Assembly (NCBI GenBank): GCA_026388735.1
Contig: JAPLJG010000058.1
Coordinates: 1-33,084, forward strand
From: Deltaproteobacteria bacterium
GTDB taxonomy: Bacteria > Desulfobacterota > Desulfobulbia > Desulfobulbales > Desulfurivibrionaceae
Direction: 5' to 3'
DNA length: 33,084 bases
The position numbers and the translations under genes were made by a program. Shown here piece after piece: positions 9,518 to 27,922 of this stretch. Numbering within the stretch: the stretch's first letter is position 1; the number at the start of each line of letters is the position of its first letter. The notes beneath the pieces were generated by a model that did not search any database, was not told where the DNA came from, and saw only the letters and a list, made by a program, of their open reading frames with translations.

Positions 9518-10327
9518 ATGCAGGATAACAAGTATAGCTTTTTCTATCCCGGCTCACTGAACAAGAGCGTATTGCTGATCCATGGGCTGACCGGCAGTCC
9601 GGCGGAGATGAAATATCTGGGCAAGCAGCTGCACAAGCTCGGCTTCACGGTTTACGCGCCTGTCCTTGCCGGGCATTGCCGGGATATAGACCGGCTGCTA
9701 GCCACCTCCTGGGAGGACTGGTACACCTCAATAGAGACCGCATACCAGGATTTGCGCAGCCGCAACCCATTGCACGAAATCTATACTGCGGGCATTTGCG
9801 CTGGCGGTGCACTTGGTCTGATCCTGGCGGCGAATCATCCTGAACTGGCTGGAGTGGCGACCTATTCTCTAGCCTTTCGTTATGATGGCTGGAATATGTC
9901 GCAGCTTCTTCATAGAATTACCACGCCATTATCCCTGGTTGCGGGGCTGCCTTTGATAAAACGGATCCAGTTCGCCGAGAAAGAACCCTTTGGTCTGAAA
10001 GACGAAAGATTGCGGGCCAGGGTGAAAACCGGAGAGATACGGATCGAGGGCGCGCTGGATTATTTCCCTATGGGGGCGCTGTATCAGATGTACCTCATGA
10101 ATGAGCAGCTCAAGCGGCTATTGCCGCAAATTCATACCCCTGTGCTCTTGTTGCACGCGCTTGAGGACGATATGAGCCACTGGCGCAATTCCGACTATGT
10201 GGCAAAACATATCGGTGGCAAATGCCGGATGCATCTGCTCGAAGACAGCTATCATATGATCCATGTAGATAAGGAACGCAAAAAAGTTGCTGAATTAACG
10301 GCGGAGTTTTTTATTGCACCTTCGTAA
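9518..10327 (+). CDS. Alpha/beta hydrolase with cysteine nucleophile
   Basis: A 269-residue serine-hydrolase-fold protein of the carboxylesterase/monoacylglycerol lipase type. The oxyanion-hole segment is LLIHGLTGSPAEM (19-31). The nucleophile elbow reads GICAGG, so Cys94 replaces the usual Ser of GxSxG. The rest of the triad is likely Asp217 or Asp218 (HALEDDMSH) and His246 (SYHMIHVD). Cys nucleophiles in this fold are known from dienelactone hydrolase and PHA synthases. It has no signal peptide and starts 8 bases after cfa in the same operon, which points to action on a lipid-related ester or thioester. The 10328-10445 gap before glmS holds a hairpin. Confidence 0.8.
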   Translation: MQDNKYSFFYPGSLNKSVLLIHGLTGSPAEMKYLGKQLHKLGFTVYAPVLAGHCRDIDRLLATSWEDWYTSIETAYQDLRSRNPLHEIYTAGICAGGALGLILAANHPELAGVATYSLAFRYDGWNMSQLLHRITTPLSLVAGLPLIKRIQFAEKEPFGLKDERLRARVKTGEIRIEGALDYFPMGALYQMYLMNEQLKRLLPQIHTPVLLLHALEDDMSHWRNSDYVAKHIGGKCRMHLLEDSYHMIHVDKERKKVAELTAEFFIAPS

Positions 10328-13207: not shown

Positions 13208-13540
13208 ATGCAGCAATGGATTTTTCTTTCGATCGCCATCGTAAGCGAGGTTATTGCCACCACCTCCCTTAAGGCATCTGAGGGGTTTTCTCGCTTGTGG
13301 CCATCGCTTATCGTTGTGATCGGATACTCAATCGCTTTGTGTTTTCTCTCGCTTACCCTCAAAACGATTCCGGTTGGAGTGGTTTACGCCATTTGGTCTG
13401 GTGCTGGCATTGCGCTGGTCGCTCTGGTTGCCTGGATCTTTCTCGGGCAATCTCTGGATCTCCCTGCCATTATGGGCTTGCTGCTTATCGTGGCGGGCGT
13501 GGCTGTCCTCAATATCTTTTCCAAGACGGTTTCCAACTAA
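13208..13540 (+). CDS. emrE: EmrE-like small multidrug resistance transporter
   Basis: A 110-residue small multidrug resistance (SMR) protein, a proton-coupled exporter of quaternary cations working as a dimer in the inner membrane. Four membrane spans are visible. The proton/substrate-binding Glu is at position 14 (SIAIVSEVIATT), exactly as in EmrE, and the family signatures ASEGFSRLWPS, GVVYAIWSGAGIALV and LDLPAIMGLLLI are present. This pattern favours the drug-exporting EmrE/QacE branch over the guanidinium exporter Gdx/SugE. ATG 13208 has a strong AAGGAGGT at 13194-13201; the frame is open further upstream but that region overlaps tatC and is not membrane-like. The downstream two-component genes start about 47 bases later and might regulate it. 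Confidence 0.92.
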   Translation: MQQWIFLSIAIVSEVIATTSLKASEGFSRLWPSLIVVIGYSIALCFLSLTLKTIPVGVVYAIWSGAGIALVALVAWIFLGQSLDLPAIMGLLLIVAGVAVLNIFSKTVSN

Positions 13541-13587: not shown

Positions 13588-14268
13588 GTGAGAATCCTTA
13601 TAGTAGATGACGATCCCGATATTCGCGACCAACTTGTCAGGCTACTTACCGGACAAAAATACATCGTTGAAATTGCCGCGGATGGGGAGAAGGCTCTAGA
13701 CAGGATTTTCAACCAGCCCTTCGACCTAATCATCCTCGATATCATGATGCCCATAAAAGACGGGCTGTCCGTGTTACAAGAAATCCGCCAAGACAAGATC
13801 GGCACTCCGGTCCTCCTGCTGTCCGCCAAGAGCGAGATCAATGACAAGATCAAAGGGCTCGACCAAGGAGCGGACGATTACCTGGCCAAGCCGTTTTCTG
13901 CCTCCGAACTGCTGGCGCGGATGCGTGCTCTGCTCAGGAGAGGCTCAGAACACGCCGCTCCCACCCTGGATATCAAAGACATCCACCTCAACACGGTTAC
14001 CCGCGAGGTAACAGTCGGTAGCAATATCGTCCTGCTAACGCCCAAAGAATTCGCCATTCTCGAGTTTCTCTTCTACAACAAAAACCGAACCATATCGCGC
14101 TTCAGCCTCGCCGAGCACGTCTGGGGGGAAGATTTTGATCCCTTCACCATGTCCAATTACATCGATGTACACATCAAGAATTTGCGACGAAAAATCGGCG
14201 ATACCGATGGCAGCATTGTCCGGACGATTCGGGGGGTCGGCTACATCGTCACGGGAGAGGGCCAATGA
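13588..14268 (+). CDS. OmpR/PhoB-family response regulator
   Basis: A 226-residue DNA-binding response regulator. The receiver domain (1-115) has the acidic pocket VDDDP, phospho-acceptor Asp51 in LIILDIMMP, and Lys101 in YLAKPFS. The C-terminal winged helix (about 130-224) has LTPKEFAILEFLF and the recognition helix region NYIDVHIKNLRRKI, ending RTIRGVGYIV. GTG 13588 is preferred because the receiver core begins at once and a GGTGAGG element lies 12-18 bases upstream; GTG 13570 is in frame but would overlap that site. The kinase gene begins inside the last codon (ATGA overlap at 14265-14268), so the two are translationally coupled. Target genes are unknown; emrE immediately upstream is one candidate. 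Confidence 0.93.
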   Translation: MRILIVDDDPDIRDQLVRLLTGQKYIVEIAADGEKALDRIFNQPFDLIILDIMMPIKDGLSVLQEIRQDKIGTPVLLLSAKSEINDKIKGLDQGADDYLAKPFSASELLARMRALLRRGSEHAAPTLDIKDIHLNTVTREVTVGSNIVLLTPKEFAILEFLFYNKNRTISRFSLAEHVWGEDFDPFTMSNYIDVHIKNLRRKIGDTDGSIVRTIRGVGYIVTGEGQ

Positions 14269-24343: not shown

Positions 24344-25315
24344 TCAGCCATCCGCGGTCAGATCCTTAAAATGGGCAAGGCTCTTGCTGCGCTTGAGCTG
24401 CCTGGCCAGGGGCAACACCTCTGGGTCATGGACATGGCAGAGCACCTCCTTCATCTTGCAGAGGATCTGGTGCTCGCCGCAGAACAGCGCCTGATAGCGG
24501 ACCAACAGCTCTTGCAGATATTTGCGCAGCTCAGCGATCTTGGTGGCGGACGCCGATTCGCTGGGGCATTTGCCCCGCAACCGTTCAAACAGCAGGGGGT
24601 CGGCAATGGCCCCTCGGCCCAGCATCAACCCGGCCACCCCGGTCTCGGCCAGAACCCGCTGCCCGGTGGCCGCGCTGAAGATATCCCCGTTGGCGATCAC
24701 CGGCAGAGAGGTTTGGAGCACCACCTCAGCGGTGACCCCGTGGTCCGCCGCCCCGCTGTACATCTGCTTCACGGTGCGCGGGTGGACCACGAGAAAATCG
24801 ATGCCGCTGTCGGCAAAGAGCGTCAGCAGGGAAAAAATCTGGGCCGGGTCGTCAAAGCCGGAGCGCACCTTGACGGAGAAACTGCCCCGAATCTCCTGGC
24901 GCAACCGGGCAAGCAGCCGCCCCAGAGCCACCGGTGCACGCAGCAGGGCACCGCCTGCGGTCTGGCTGGTCATCCGGCCATAGGGGCAGCCGAGATTGAT
25001 GTTGAGATGTTCGGCCCCCAGCTCCTGCACGGTGTTGGCCGCAGCCACCAGGGCCTCGGTGTCGGTACCGATAAGTTGCACCACCAGCGGCACCCCGCCA
25101 ACCGTGCTGACCACCTCCTGCCGGTCATTTTCGGTGATATTCTTTTTGGTGCTCGCCTTGACCCGGACAAACTCGGTAAAAACCACATCGGGCCGGACCC
25201 GCTCGATGAACAGACCGCGCAGGGCCCGGTTGGTAAGGCCTTGCATCGGTGCCAGCATCAGGGGCAGACTCCCAGCTGCCCAAGGCAGTTTGGCGTTATG
25301 GTGTTGCTCATGCAT
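24344..25315 (-). CDS. tRNA-dihydrouridine synthase family protein
   Basis: An FMN-dependent enzyme that reduces uridines in tRNA loops to dihydrouridine. The 323-residue TIM-barrel protein begins with LMLAPMQGLTNRALR (FMN contacts) and TEFVRV (as in DusC), and has the catalytic Cys110 in INLGCPYGRMT, then KVRSGFDD, HPRTVKQMYSG, IANGDIF and GLMLGRGA (phosphate binding). TEFVRV favours the DusC branch, but the subtype and target position cannot be fixed by eye. It starts at ATG 25315 with GGAG 10 bases upstream and a plausible promoter further up. It leads the minus-strand operon with the P-type ATPase; the link between the two functions is not obvious. Confidence 0.88.
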   Translation of the reverse strand: MHEQHHNAKLPWAAGSLPLMLAPMQGLTNRALRGLFIERVRPDVVFTEFVRVKASTKKNITENDRQEVVSTVGGVPLVVQLIGTDTEALVAAANTVQELGAEHLNINLGCPYGRMTSQTAGGALLRAPVALGRLLARLRQEIRGSFSVKVRSGFDDPAQIFSLLTLFADSGIDFLVVHPRTVKQMYSGAADHGVTAEVVLQTSLPVIANGDIFSAATGQRVLAETGVAGLMLGRGAIADPLLFERLRGKCPSESASATKIAELRKYLQELLVRYQALFCGEHQILCKMKEVLCHVHDPEVLPLARQLKRSKSLAHFKDLTADG

Positions 25316-25450: not shown

Positions 25451-25487
25451 CCCCTGACATGTCAGGAATTTCCTGACATGTCAGGGG
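25451..25487. promoter_or_regulatory. Paired 14-bp palindromes, candidate activator site
   Basis: Two identical perfect palindromes, CCTGACATGTCAGG, lie at 25453-25466 and 25472-25485, 19 bases centre to centre. Together with flanking C and G they form a perfect 16-bp inverted repeat around AATTT. They lie about 120-160 bases upstream of the start point predicted from the sigma-54 promoter at 25583, the usual place for enhancer-binding-protein sites. A transcriptional terminator is less likely, as no U-tract follows on either side. The rest of the 365-base stretch 25316-25680 holds the two promoters and no gene. Confidence 0.55.
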
Positions 25488-25582
25488 CTGCCCTTCTGCC
25501 AAGTATTCATTCCCATCGTAGCACCCACTTAAGTTTCAATTATTCCAGCACCATGGAACTTCTGTCCTGGCGGCAACACTTC

Positions 25583-25598
25583 TGGCACACATTCTGCT
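25583..25598 (+). promoter_or_regulatory. Sigma-54 promoter upstream of csbD-like gene
   Basis: TGGCAC (25583-25588) with CTGCT (25594-25598) matches the RpoN consensus TGGCAC-N5-TTGCW at 10 of 11 fixed positions, and the GG and GC pairs have the required spacing. The predicted start point is near 25609, about 70 bases before the csbD-like ATG. The csbD-spy-BON genes follow on this strand with gaps of 25-30 bases. Confidence 0.7.
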
Positions 25599-25680
25599 AC
25601 CTAAAATCAAGAGCAACTACCAAGGCATGTTTCCTTTTAGATGCGATTTATCCATCCAAAAATATGGCAGGAGAAATACC

Positions 25681-25860
25681 ATGAAATCAGGCACGAAGGA
25701 CCAGGCGGAAGGCACGTTTCATCAACTAGCGGGTAAGGCCAAGGAAATTGCCGGGAAGCTCAGCGAGAATCCAAGGTTGGAAGCCGAAGGTTCCGATGAA
25801 AAAATAATCGGCACAGTTCAGAAAAAGATCGGTCAGATCAAAAAGGTTTTTGAGAAGTAA
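25681..25860 (+). CDS. CsbD-like stress protein
   Basis: A 59-residue, very hydrophilic protein. The sequence KDQAEGTFHQLAGKAKEIAGKL and the later GSDEKIIGTVQKKIGQIKKVFEK follow the repeated K.G...K..G pattern of the CsbD family, small general-stress proteins known in Bacillus (SigB regulon) and as YjbJ in E. coli; their molecular role is unclear. ATG 25681 is chosen because GGAG lies 9 bases upstream and the family similarity begins there; the frame is open 18 codons earlier without similarity. First gene behind the sigma-54 promoter, followed after 30 bases by the Spy-like gene. Confidence 0.85.
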   Translation: MKSGTKDQAEGTFHQLAGKAKEIAGKLSENPRLEAEGSDEKIIGTVQKKIGQIKKVFEK

Positions 25861-25890
25861 ACAAGAACAACACTCAAAGGAGAGCATGCC

Positions 25891-26403
25891 ATGAAAACAC
25901 TATTAAAGCTGGTAGCAGTAACCCTGTTGGCGCTTAGCGTACAGATGCCCGCATTTGCACAGATGGCGGATATGCCCATGCAGCCGCAGATGGGAGGGCG
26001 TGGGCAGATGATGGGAATGGGCAATATGGACAGGATGGGCGATATGATGGGCATGTGCCTCGCGCAAGCAGGCACTATGGGGCTTACCGATGACCAACTC
26101 GCAAAAATGAAGCCTATACACAGCGAAATGCAAAAAAATCATGCCCGCTTCGGAGCGGACCTGAAGATCGCCGAGATCGAGCTCATGGATATCATGGACG
26201 TGAAAGATTTTGACCTCGAGAAGGCCAGCGCTGCCGTTAAAAAAATTGAGGAGATAAAGACCGCCCATCATTTGGAAATGCTGAAAGCCATGAAAGAAAT
26301 GCGGGCTATTTTTACGGACGAACAATTTAAGAAAATGAAGAAGATGATGCCCATGAAGATGGGTGGGGGAAAACCGACAAAGATGATGATGAAGAAACAG
26401 TAA
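25891..26403 (+). CDS. Spy/CpxP-family periplasmic protein, Met-rich
   Basis: A 170-residue exported protein. The signal peptide ends at AFA-Q (about residue 23). The mature N-terminal part is strikingly Met- and Gly-rich (MGGRGQMMGMGNMDRMGDMMGM), followed by the LTxxQ motif GLTDDQLAKMKPI (64-76), a long helical region and a second copy-like FTDEQFKKMKKM near the end, then a Lys/Met tail. The two LTxxQ-type motifs mark the Spy/CpxP/ZraP group, cradle-shaped dimeric chaperones or metal-responsive proteins of the periplasm. The Met clusters suggest Cu(I) or Ag(I) binding, which is inferred. It sits between csbD-like and BON genes, so an envelope-stress role fits; E. coli zraP is likewise sigma-54-dependent. 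Confidence 0.86.
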   Translation: MKTLLKLVAVTLLALSVQMPAFAQMADMPMQPQMGGRGQMMGMGNMDRMGDMMGMCLAQAGTMGLTDDQLAKMKPIHSEMQKNHARFGADLKIAEIELMDIMDVKDFDLEKASAAVKKIEEIKTAHHLEMLKAMKEMRAIFTDEQFKKMKKMMPMKMGGGKPTKMMMKKQ

Positions 26404-26428
26404 GACTCAACACAAGTCAGGAGGTTTC

Positions 26429-27184
26429 ATGAAAGCAATAAATTCTATAGCTATACTGGTGGCAGCTGTGGCTATGCTGTCGCTCAGCATGCCTGTGCAT
26501 GCTGAAAATATGGACAGCCGCATCGAATCATCTGCCAAGCAATCGTATGTTTTCAAAACCTACCTTCGGGATGCTGATGTCAAAATCGAGTCCAAGGGCG
26601 GTGCCGTCACCTTGATAGGGGTCGTCTCCGACAACTTTCTCAAATCCTTGGCCGAGGAGACCGTGGCAGGCCTGCCTGGTGTAAAGAGTGTTGACAACAG
26701 GCTGGAAGTCAAAGGCGCAGCCCCCACCGCAGATTCGGATGCCTGGCTCCGTGACAAGGTGAAAATCACGCTCTTGTTTCATCGTAGCGTGAGCGCCGCC
26801 ACAACCGAAGTTGACGTCAAAGACGGCTTCGTTACCCTGCGCGGAGATGCTGCCAGTCAGGCGCAAAAAGAGTTGACGGCGGAATACGTCAAGGACGTCG
26901 AAGGGGTTCTCGGCTTAAACAATGAGATAATCGTGGCAAAGTCCTTGAAAAAAACACAAACAGTGGGCGAAAAAATTGATGATGCTTCCATCACCGCCCA
27001 AGTCAAGATGACCTTGCTGTATCACCGCTCGACCAGCGCCATCAATACCAAAGTGGAGACAAAACGCGGCATGGTCACCTTGTATGGCAAAGCCAGCAAC
27101 GCAGCCGAATTAAACCTGGCCACCAAACTTGCCTTCGATGTAAATGGTGTGAATGGTGTGAAAAACCGGATGACCATCGAGTAG
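26429..27184 (+). CDS. Exported triple-BON-domain protein (OsmY-like)
   Basis: A 251-residue exported protein. The signal peptide ends at VHA-E (about residue 25). Three BON domains follow, about 33-95, 104-172 and 183-250; each has the helix-strand pattern ending in a GxVxLxGxV-type turn (GAVTLIGVVSDN, GFVTLRGDAASQ, GMVTLYGKASNA) and a V.GV..V.N. closing strand. BON domains are thought to bind phospholipid membranes; OsmY has two. It starts at ATG 26429 behind AGGAGG. Third gene of the sigma-54-associated cluster, with a stem-loop at 27226-27260 as its probable end. Confidence 0.9.
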   Translation: MKAINSIAILVAAVAMLSLSMPVHAENMDSRIESSAKQSYVFKTYLRDADVKIESKGGAVTLIGVVSDNFLKSLAEETVAGLPGVKSVDNRLEVKGAAPTADSDAWLRDKVKITLLFHRSVSAATTEVDVKDGFVTLRGDAASQAQKELTAEYVKDVEGVLGLNNEIIVAKSLKKTQTVGEKIDDASITAQVKMTLLYHRSTSAINTKVETKRGMVTLYGKASNAAELNLATKLAFDVNGVNGVKNRMTIE

Positions 27185-27225: not shown

Positions 27226-27260
27226 GCAGGCTGTTGAAAACTCGTTTTTCGACAGCCTGC
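27226..27260 (+). terminator. Stem-loop terminator after the BON gene
   Basis: Arms 27226-27240 and 27246-27260 pair at 14 of 15 positions, with A-rich and T-rich inner parts. No U-tract follows the outer stem, so it may be a REP-like repeat acting as a terminator or 3'-end stabiliser for the csbD-spy-BON transcript. Similar GGCTGTTGAAAA palindromes are common in related genomes, from memory. Confidence 0.5.
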
Positions 27261-27538
27261 GCTAGTCATTATTTAGCCTGCCCCGGATATCCGTTGCAAA
27301 TGGATCAACGTCACCCCTCCGCCAGCTTTTCCCGCTTAAAAAATACCTGATCCAACAAGCCGCCCTCTCAATACTTTTCAAGTATTGACAATCCATTAGG
27401 CGTATGGGATGTTTTTGGCAAATGCCTGGGGAGGGATCTGTTCCGGTTTTTCCCAAAAACAGGTATGCTCTCCCCCTCAACTTTTCGCTGGAATAATCAC
27501 GTTACCCAGGCCATTCCCTGCCTGGAAGCAAGGAAACC
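27261..27538 (+). promoter_or_regulatory. Gene-free stretch with hairpin and -35-like box
   Basis: No gene is supported here. A perfect 8-bp hairpin (27369-27376 with 27380-27387, TTC loop) overlaps a perfect TTGACA at 27385-27390. The best -10 at a 17-base spacing is poor (GATGTT at 27408-27413), so an activator or a different promoter may be needed. It would serve the membrane-protein gene at 27539. Confidence 0.25.
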
Positions 27539-27922
27539 ATGTACATCAATATCAGCCAAGACCCACCGACCGATGTCGTAGAGACCAAAAAAAAATATCT
27601 GCGCATCATCCCGTATCTCCTGGCCCTGGTGCTCTGCGGCATCCTGCTTGCTGTTTTCCAGATTGTTTTTGGCTCGGCCCATGGCGACCTCGTTGAAAAT
27701 ACCGCCCTGATTCTCTTCGTGGCTCCGGGCCTGGCGTTTTTCTATTTCGCCGAGAAGCTCCATGACCACAAAAAGCTTTCAGCGAAGCAGGAAAATGAGA
27801 TTGAGGAGTTCTGCCGGCAAGCCCCAGATATTGCCGCCTATTGCGCCAAGGTGGCGGGGCTAGAGAGAAAACTAATCAAGGCGGAATATGATGCCTTCAA
27901 AGCGCGGATTGAAGATTTGTAG
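27539..27922 (+). CDS. Two-span membrane protein of unknown family
   Basis: A 127-residue protein, not recognised. A polar N terminus (about 24 residues) is followed by two membrane spans, IPYLLALVLCGILLAVFQIVF (about 24-44) and NTALILFVAPGLAFFYFAE (about 54-72), and then a charged, helical cytoplasmic tail (HDHKKLSAKQENEIEEFC...AEYDAFKARIEDL) with coiled-coil character. The start ATG 27539 has AAGGAAA upstream. It lies 49 bases before the large exported protein on the same strand, so the two are probably co-transcribed. Function unknown. Confidence 0.65.
   Translation: MYINISQDPPTDVVETKKKYLRIIPYLLALVLCGILLAVFQIVFGSAHGDLVENTALILFVAPGLAFFYFAEKLHDHKKLSAKQENEIEEFCRQAPDIAAYCAKVAGLERKLIKAEYDAFKARIEDL

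Follow-up and report, generated by a model that had tools for sequence, protein, structure and literature searches.

A predicted sigma-54 envelope/general-stress regulon, including a csbD-spy-BON operon, in one desulfobacterial genus and in Nitrospirota

Transcription of E. coli zraP depends on sigma-54, and the ZraPSR system resembles the locus described here in putting an exported protein of the Spy family under the control of sigma-54 together with a response-regulator enhancer-binding protein (EBP). The Psp response shares the same sigma-54 envelope-stress logic, while the PEP-CTERM PrsK/PrsR system similarly couples a response-regulator EBP to dispersed envelope targets. Effector families overlapping with those reported below, such as CsbD and BON/OsmY, occur in the general-stress regulons of RpoS, sigma-B and EcfG. 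Such overlap also extends to the AlgU general-stress regulon (PMC10651043). The closest described system is that of DVU3305, a sigma-54 general-stress regulator of Desulfovibrio vulgaris. In the two reports on it (PMC3333781, PMC4641369), the likeness lies in an autoregulated sigma-54 response regulator and in its target genes (membrane, hypothetical and UspA), which several stresses induce, while a Lon-protease response-regulator partner, Kdp and transport targets and a GAFSGA loop are features of its own. Neither CsbD nor BON is named in the main text of these reports.

The present locus differs from each of these systems. No kinase gene adjoins csbD-spy-BON, the candidate sensor encoded on another contig (C106) is a PAS hybrid kinase rather than a ZraS-type protein, and the predicted regulon has a broad osmotic/general-stress target set. 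The candidate activators on C106 carry REC or PAS domains, and their targets differ from those of PspF. Assignment of the C106 activator as ZraR (NF007689 equivalog model, 329 bits versus a cut-off of 760), PspF (TIGR02974, 276 of 443.55 bits) or PrsR (TIGR02915, 314 of 502.6 bits) was rejected. Compared with the DVU3305 operon, the C106 cluster contains CheB-CheR, a hybrid kinase and two EBPs but no Lon-protease response regulator, and no Desulfovibrio record was among the matches to the module described below when about 85,000 species genomes were scanned. In contrast to the RpoS, sigma-B, EcfG and AlgU regulons, the effector families are here predicted to be under sigma-54 and EBPs. Literature searches at the level of main texts yielded no description joining CsbD or BON with RpoN, sigma-54 or an enhancer-binding protein, and CsbD is not mentioned in the main text of a Geobacter RpoN study (PMC2725144) or of the 2011 and 2025 sigma-54 surveys (PMC3162934, PMC12316311). 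The original prediction did not know the gene combination as a described unit, a view that is supported, no published description having been found.

The csbD-spy-BON operon and its upstream elements

The window, i.e. the whole stretch of 33,084 nucleotides analysed, contains csbD, spy and a triple-BON gene in the tight succession originally proposed, each now confirmed by its Pfam family (Table 1). The intergenic gaps are 30 bp (csbD/spy) and 25 bp (spy/BON), and a Shine-Dalgarno sequence precedes each gene. An N-terminal leader is visible in the Spy/CpxP protein, and the best PDB match of the triple-BON protein is OsmY (8rjx, E 1.2e-11). A strong inverted repeat lacking a T tract is located 3' of the BON gene (27227-27262) and is a possible terminator. 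Just downstream of the cluster, a 127-aa membrane protein (27539-27922) matches PspB below threshold (17.6 of 25.6 bits).

The near-consensus RpoN promoter claimed by the original prediction was confirmed, with GG at 25584-25585 and GC at 25596-25597, and it departs from the -24/-12 consensus only at 25594 (C for T). No other site in the window matches TGGCAYN5YTGCW. Taken alone the promoter is not significant, because the expectation from shuffles is 0.25 matches and at least one occurs in 21 of 100 shuffles of the window. The paired palindromes upstream were likewise confirmed, the pair being found in 0 of 100 shuffles; these predicted upstream activator sites (UAS) end 97 bp from the promoter. 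The significance of promoter and palindromes comes from their recurrence. The middle element and its equivalents at other sites form an imperfect inverted repeat between UAS and promoter. IHF was considered as its reader and is not supported (mean best mismatch 2.04 vs 2.24 in shuffled spacers).

Table 1. Features of the csbD-spy-BON locus, and regulon components elsewhere in the source genome (C, contig; contig C106 corresponds to locus L054)
Feature	Location	Strand	Basis or content
dus gene, divergent upstream neighbour	24344-25315	-	
UAS (predicted), two CCTGACATGTCAGG palindromes	25453-25466 and 25472-25485	+	19-bp register; recurrence
Middle element AAGTTTCAATTATTCCAGCACCATGGAACTT	25531-25561	+	equivalent stretch conserved in both phyla
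Sigma-54 (RpoN) promoter TGGCACACATTCTGCT	25583-25598	+	-24/-12 consensus match; kept in relatives
Predicted transcript start of csbD-spy-BON	about 25609	+	
csbD-like gene, 59 aa	25681-25860	+	PF05532, 59 bits (cut-off 40)
Met-rich exported Spy/CpxP (LTXXQ) gene, 170 aa	25891-26403	+	PF07813, 30 bits (cut-off 24.3)
Exported triple-BON protein, OsmY-like, 251 aa	26429-27184	+	PF04972, three stretches
CheB-CheR-PAS	C106 3561-6203		
Hybrid kinase	C106 6206-9955		PAS-HisKA-HATPase-REC-REC-Hpt
REC-AAA-HTH_8 candidate activator	C106 10152-11678		Sigma54_activat
PAS-AAA candidate activator	C106 from 11711		Sigma54_activat
Target 1	this window		csbD-spy-BON
Target 2	C106:2466 (palindromes 2336/2355, 19 bp apart)		DUF2141 protein, then regulator cluster
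Target 3	C106:13588 (palindromes 13456/13475, 19 bp apart)		two 21-residue hydrophobic peptides, lmo0937/DUF5670, small membrane protein, lipoprotein, sll1863-family, DUF1003
Target 4	C5 (palindromes 9395/9414, 19 bp apart)		very large protein; G016 homologue with GH94 and glucoamylase domains
Target 5	C66 (palindromes 17953/17972, 19 bp apart)		ShlB/POTRA two-partner transporter
Target 6	C42 (palindromes 2122/2141, 19 bp apart)		Big_5 repeats and Ice_binding domain

A recurring module and its targets

The full module consists of two CCTGAYATRTCAGG copies in 19-bp register, followed after 96-101 bp by TGGCAYRYATTCTGCW. Six copies are present in the source genome (G000), and in each a sigma-54 promoter follows the UAS at a distance of 97-100 bp, the weakest promoter being that on C66 (TGGCGCAAATTCTGCA). 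The 19-bp register, the promoter and a UAS-promoter gap of 96-101 bp are kept across 45 aligned sites. A search with the spaced pattern in 16 genomes, selected as carriers of the regulon, returned 39 matches versus 0 for the reversed control. Unpartnered palindrome matches with two mismatches (on C40, C61, C76, C87 and C101) were treated as chance. This recurrence lends support to the proposed sigma-54 control and to the palindromes as probable activator sites.

The regulon target families comprise DUF1003, sll1863, lmo0937, DUF2141, Ice_binding, ShlB, GH94 and VWA-OmpA. Within the C106:13588 operon, the lipoprotein, which has no library match, is read as DUF2959, and the small membrane protein, with only a sub-threshold DUF202 match, is tentatively read as DUF3185-like; the C5 target can be read as a putative cyclic beta-glucan synthase. 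The two peptides heading this operon (13814-13879 and 13914-13979) are almost wholly hydrophobic, have good Shine-Dalgarno sequences and are conserved in G004, G007 and G016.

Judged by family membership, the targets appear to favour envelope stress of a general or osmotic kind over soft metals. Hence, of the envelope or soft-metal stress first proposed, the envelope part stands, while soft metals as the main theme do not, the other targets being osmotic, desiccation and general-stress families. On these grounds osmotic, desiccation or general envelope stress is the probable signal, a view we hold with modest confidence, and metal stress is an unlikely one.

Four congeners (G004, G007, G014 and G016) share the module with the source genome. 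The original prediction had staked itself on conservation of the GG and GC elements in close relatives, and the csbD promoters of G007 and G014 keep both, together with the UAS. Gene order is kept less widely: the full trio is found only in the source genome and G007, and the G014 operon is csbD-BON without spy. The trio thus appears to be a local arrangement inside a larger regulon. In G014, a single UAS pair (L065, 9756-9788) lies midway between divergent sigma-54 promoters at 9656 (-) and 9888 (+), each 99 bp away, and is predicted to serve csbD-BON in one direction and a predicted lipoprotein plus a second exported protein in the other. Congeners G009, G010, G012 and G013 and some order-level genomes also gave pattern matches, which were set aside for want of the TGA/TCA arms. 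When 395 genomes were drawn evenly from the phylum, the source genome alone contained the module.

A candidate activator in two phyla and a sister system

The absence of an activator gene from the window, as originally noted, holds for the window itself; the candidate activator is encoded on C106 and is not ZraR. The C106 regulator cluster is flanked by modules, one before it (2336) and one directly after (13456). A run of 12 C at about 13279-13300 shifts the frame of the PAS-AAA gene, cutting off its HTH, and is either an assembly error or a slippage tract; the G004 homologue is open through the HTH. The source genome carries an RpoN gene on C40 and about 24 strong Sigma54_activat matches. 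The RpoS equivalog (TIGR02394) scored below cut-off in all ten regulon genomes searched.

Homologues of the regulator cluster in G007 and G004 also adjoin regulon modules, with matched proteins mostly at 70-93% identity. Within the genus, the activator occurs in G000, G004, G007, G014 and G016 (where a contig end cuts the gene), exactly the five genomes with genuine modules, and in 0 of the 12 genomes without the regulon. Fisher's test, calculated by hand, gives p = 1/6188 for this co-occurrence, although the five genomes are related and hence not independent.

Of the 34 stretches that the scan of about 85,000 species genomes brought up, nearly all belong to the genus of the window (Desulfobulbaceae/Desulfurivibrio MAGs) or to Nitrospirota MAGs. 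The matches in Prevotella, Verrucomicrobia and Alcaligenaceae, in which the paired palindrome is missing, were put down to chance, about two being expected by estimate. An activator ortholog at 57-77% identity is present in 8 of 11 Nitrospirota genomes searched (one match being partial), other EBPs in those genomes being mostly at 40-49%. Where readable, the ortholog typically stops just short of a UAS, by between a few and a few tens of bases, as on C106. No close ortholog was found in the remaining three genomes with modules (G440, G448 and G449), perhaps owing to incomplete MAGs. Encoded near Nitrospirota modules are CsbD (56-63%) and triple-BON orthologs (56-64%), as well as lmo0937-like, DUF1003 and LTXXQ proteins; L124, with Met-rich and YHS-domain proteins downstream, is the only Nitrospirota site hinting at metals. 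One Nitrospirota genome (L110, minus strand) has modules at 1020 and 5879 with near-identical UAS and spacer and diverged promoters, a pattern that suggests possible spread by duplication.

Family- and order-level relatives possess a parallel system, with EBPs at about 50% identity. A tree places the Nitrospirota EBPs and those of the window's genus in one clade (100/100), apart from those of these relatives, and transfer between phyla is likely. The recognition helix reads NPSTLRARM in the relatives vs NPKTLESRM, the operator is about CCGTCATATATGRCRGTTATGTTAAAYNTGACGGAT, and the promoter TGGCACGTTAGTTGC follows at a 93-95 bp gap (L168-L170, L172, L173, L175-L182). In this sister clade, recognition helix and operator have changed together. 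The targets nonetheless overlap, including CsbD (L177), triple BON at 69.5% (L180), and the lipoprotein family and lmo0937-like proteins (both L176 and L177); by eye, an ice-binding-like protein (L182) and a PAS protein resembling the hybrid kinase (L175, L179) can be added.

Proposed mechanism, alternatives and significance

We consider it highly probable that csbD-spy-BON is a sigma-54 operon of a dispersed envelope/general-stress regulon with the C106 phosphorelay and EBPs. The model builds on the module with its recurrence and fixed spacing, the target set, the linkage and co-occurrence of the activator and the RpoN gene, all read in the genomes, and from these we infer binding, phosphorelay, RpoN dependence, signal and protective role. 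The PAS-containing hybrid kinase and the CheB-CheR-PAS protein would sense the cue, and the kinase would phosphorylate the REC-AAA-HTH EBP via a phosphorelay, with the PAS-AAA paralogue probably acting alongside. Some 140 bp before the predicted start, EBP dimers would bind both palindromes; upon DNA looping the EBP would remodel the RpoN-holoenzyme at TGGCAC-N5-CTGC, leading to csbD-spy-BON transcription. The same module would drive the C106 regulator cluster (autoregulation) and other envelope/osmotic protection genes.

An ordinary sigma-70 promoter could instead be used; the sigma-54 match would then be fortuitous, and the palindromes would serve as a terminator or as an RNA hairpin. The inverted repeat at 25451-25487 could indeed form a hairpin, and for the promoter pattern by itself 0.25 matches per window are expected. 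However, no terminator is needed at this position because the neighbouring dus gene diverges, the scan found no plus-strand sigma-70-like site upstream of csbD, and palindromes and promoter recur jointly at 96-101 bp in many genomes, making this explanation highly improbable. Alternatively, the locus could be a metal-responsive sigma-54 unit, ZraSR-like or otherwise, built around the Met-rich Spy protein, with csbD and BON in an accessory role. This would be in keeping with the Spy family member, with the sigma-54 dependence of E. coli zraP and with the proteins downstream of L124. Set against this are an activator that is not ZraR (329 of 760 bits), a G014 operon that lacks spy and remaining targets that are not metal genes; we regard such a unit as improbable.

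It is also conceivable that another of the roughly 24 EBPs of the source genome binds the module and the C106 linkage is coincidental. That number of strong Sigma54_activat matches, and the three Nitrospirota MAGs that have modules without a close C106-type ortholog, would allow for this, but in two phyla the activator adjoins a module, within the genus activator and regulon occur in the same genomes, and the recognition helix and operator of the sister clade change together. We therefore judge control by a different EBP quite improbable and retain the C106 activator as the candidate regulator.

The predicted sigma-54 regulon is new and apparently undescribed. Its hosts are two unrelated groups of sediment and groundwater bacteria, and as predicted here it is unusual in its cross-phylum conservation and in having a sister system with a seemingly rewritten operator. 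More tentatively, a whole general-stress response may be run by sigma-54 and a dedicated phosphorelay-activator pair, as a unit passed between Nitrospirota and one desulfobacterial genus, with sister lineages in which the operator was rewritten along with the recognition helix while many targets stayed unchanged. The effector set in that reading is elsewhere run by RpoS, sigma-B, EcfG or AlgU. These uncultured desulfobacterial and Nitrospirota lineages show no RpoS equivalog above cut-off, and we found no literature on their general envelope-stress control. Taken together, activator, 33-bp operator, fixed spacing and promoter form an exact signature that can be searched for and from which co-regulated genes can be predicted; the function of many of these is unknown, as with those for CsbD, DUF1003, lmo0937 and ice-binding-like proteins. 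The existence of two operator types, each with its matching recognition helix, furthermore amounts to a natural experiment in how activator and regulon jointly shift their specificity.
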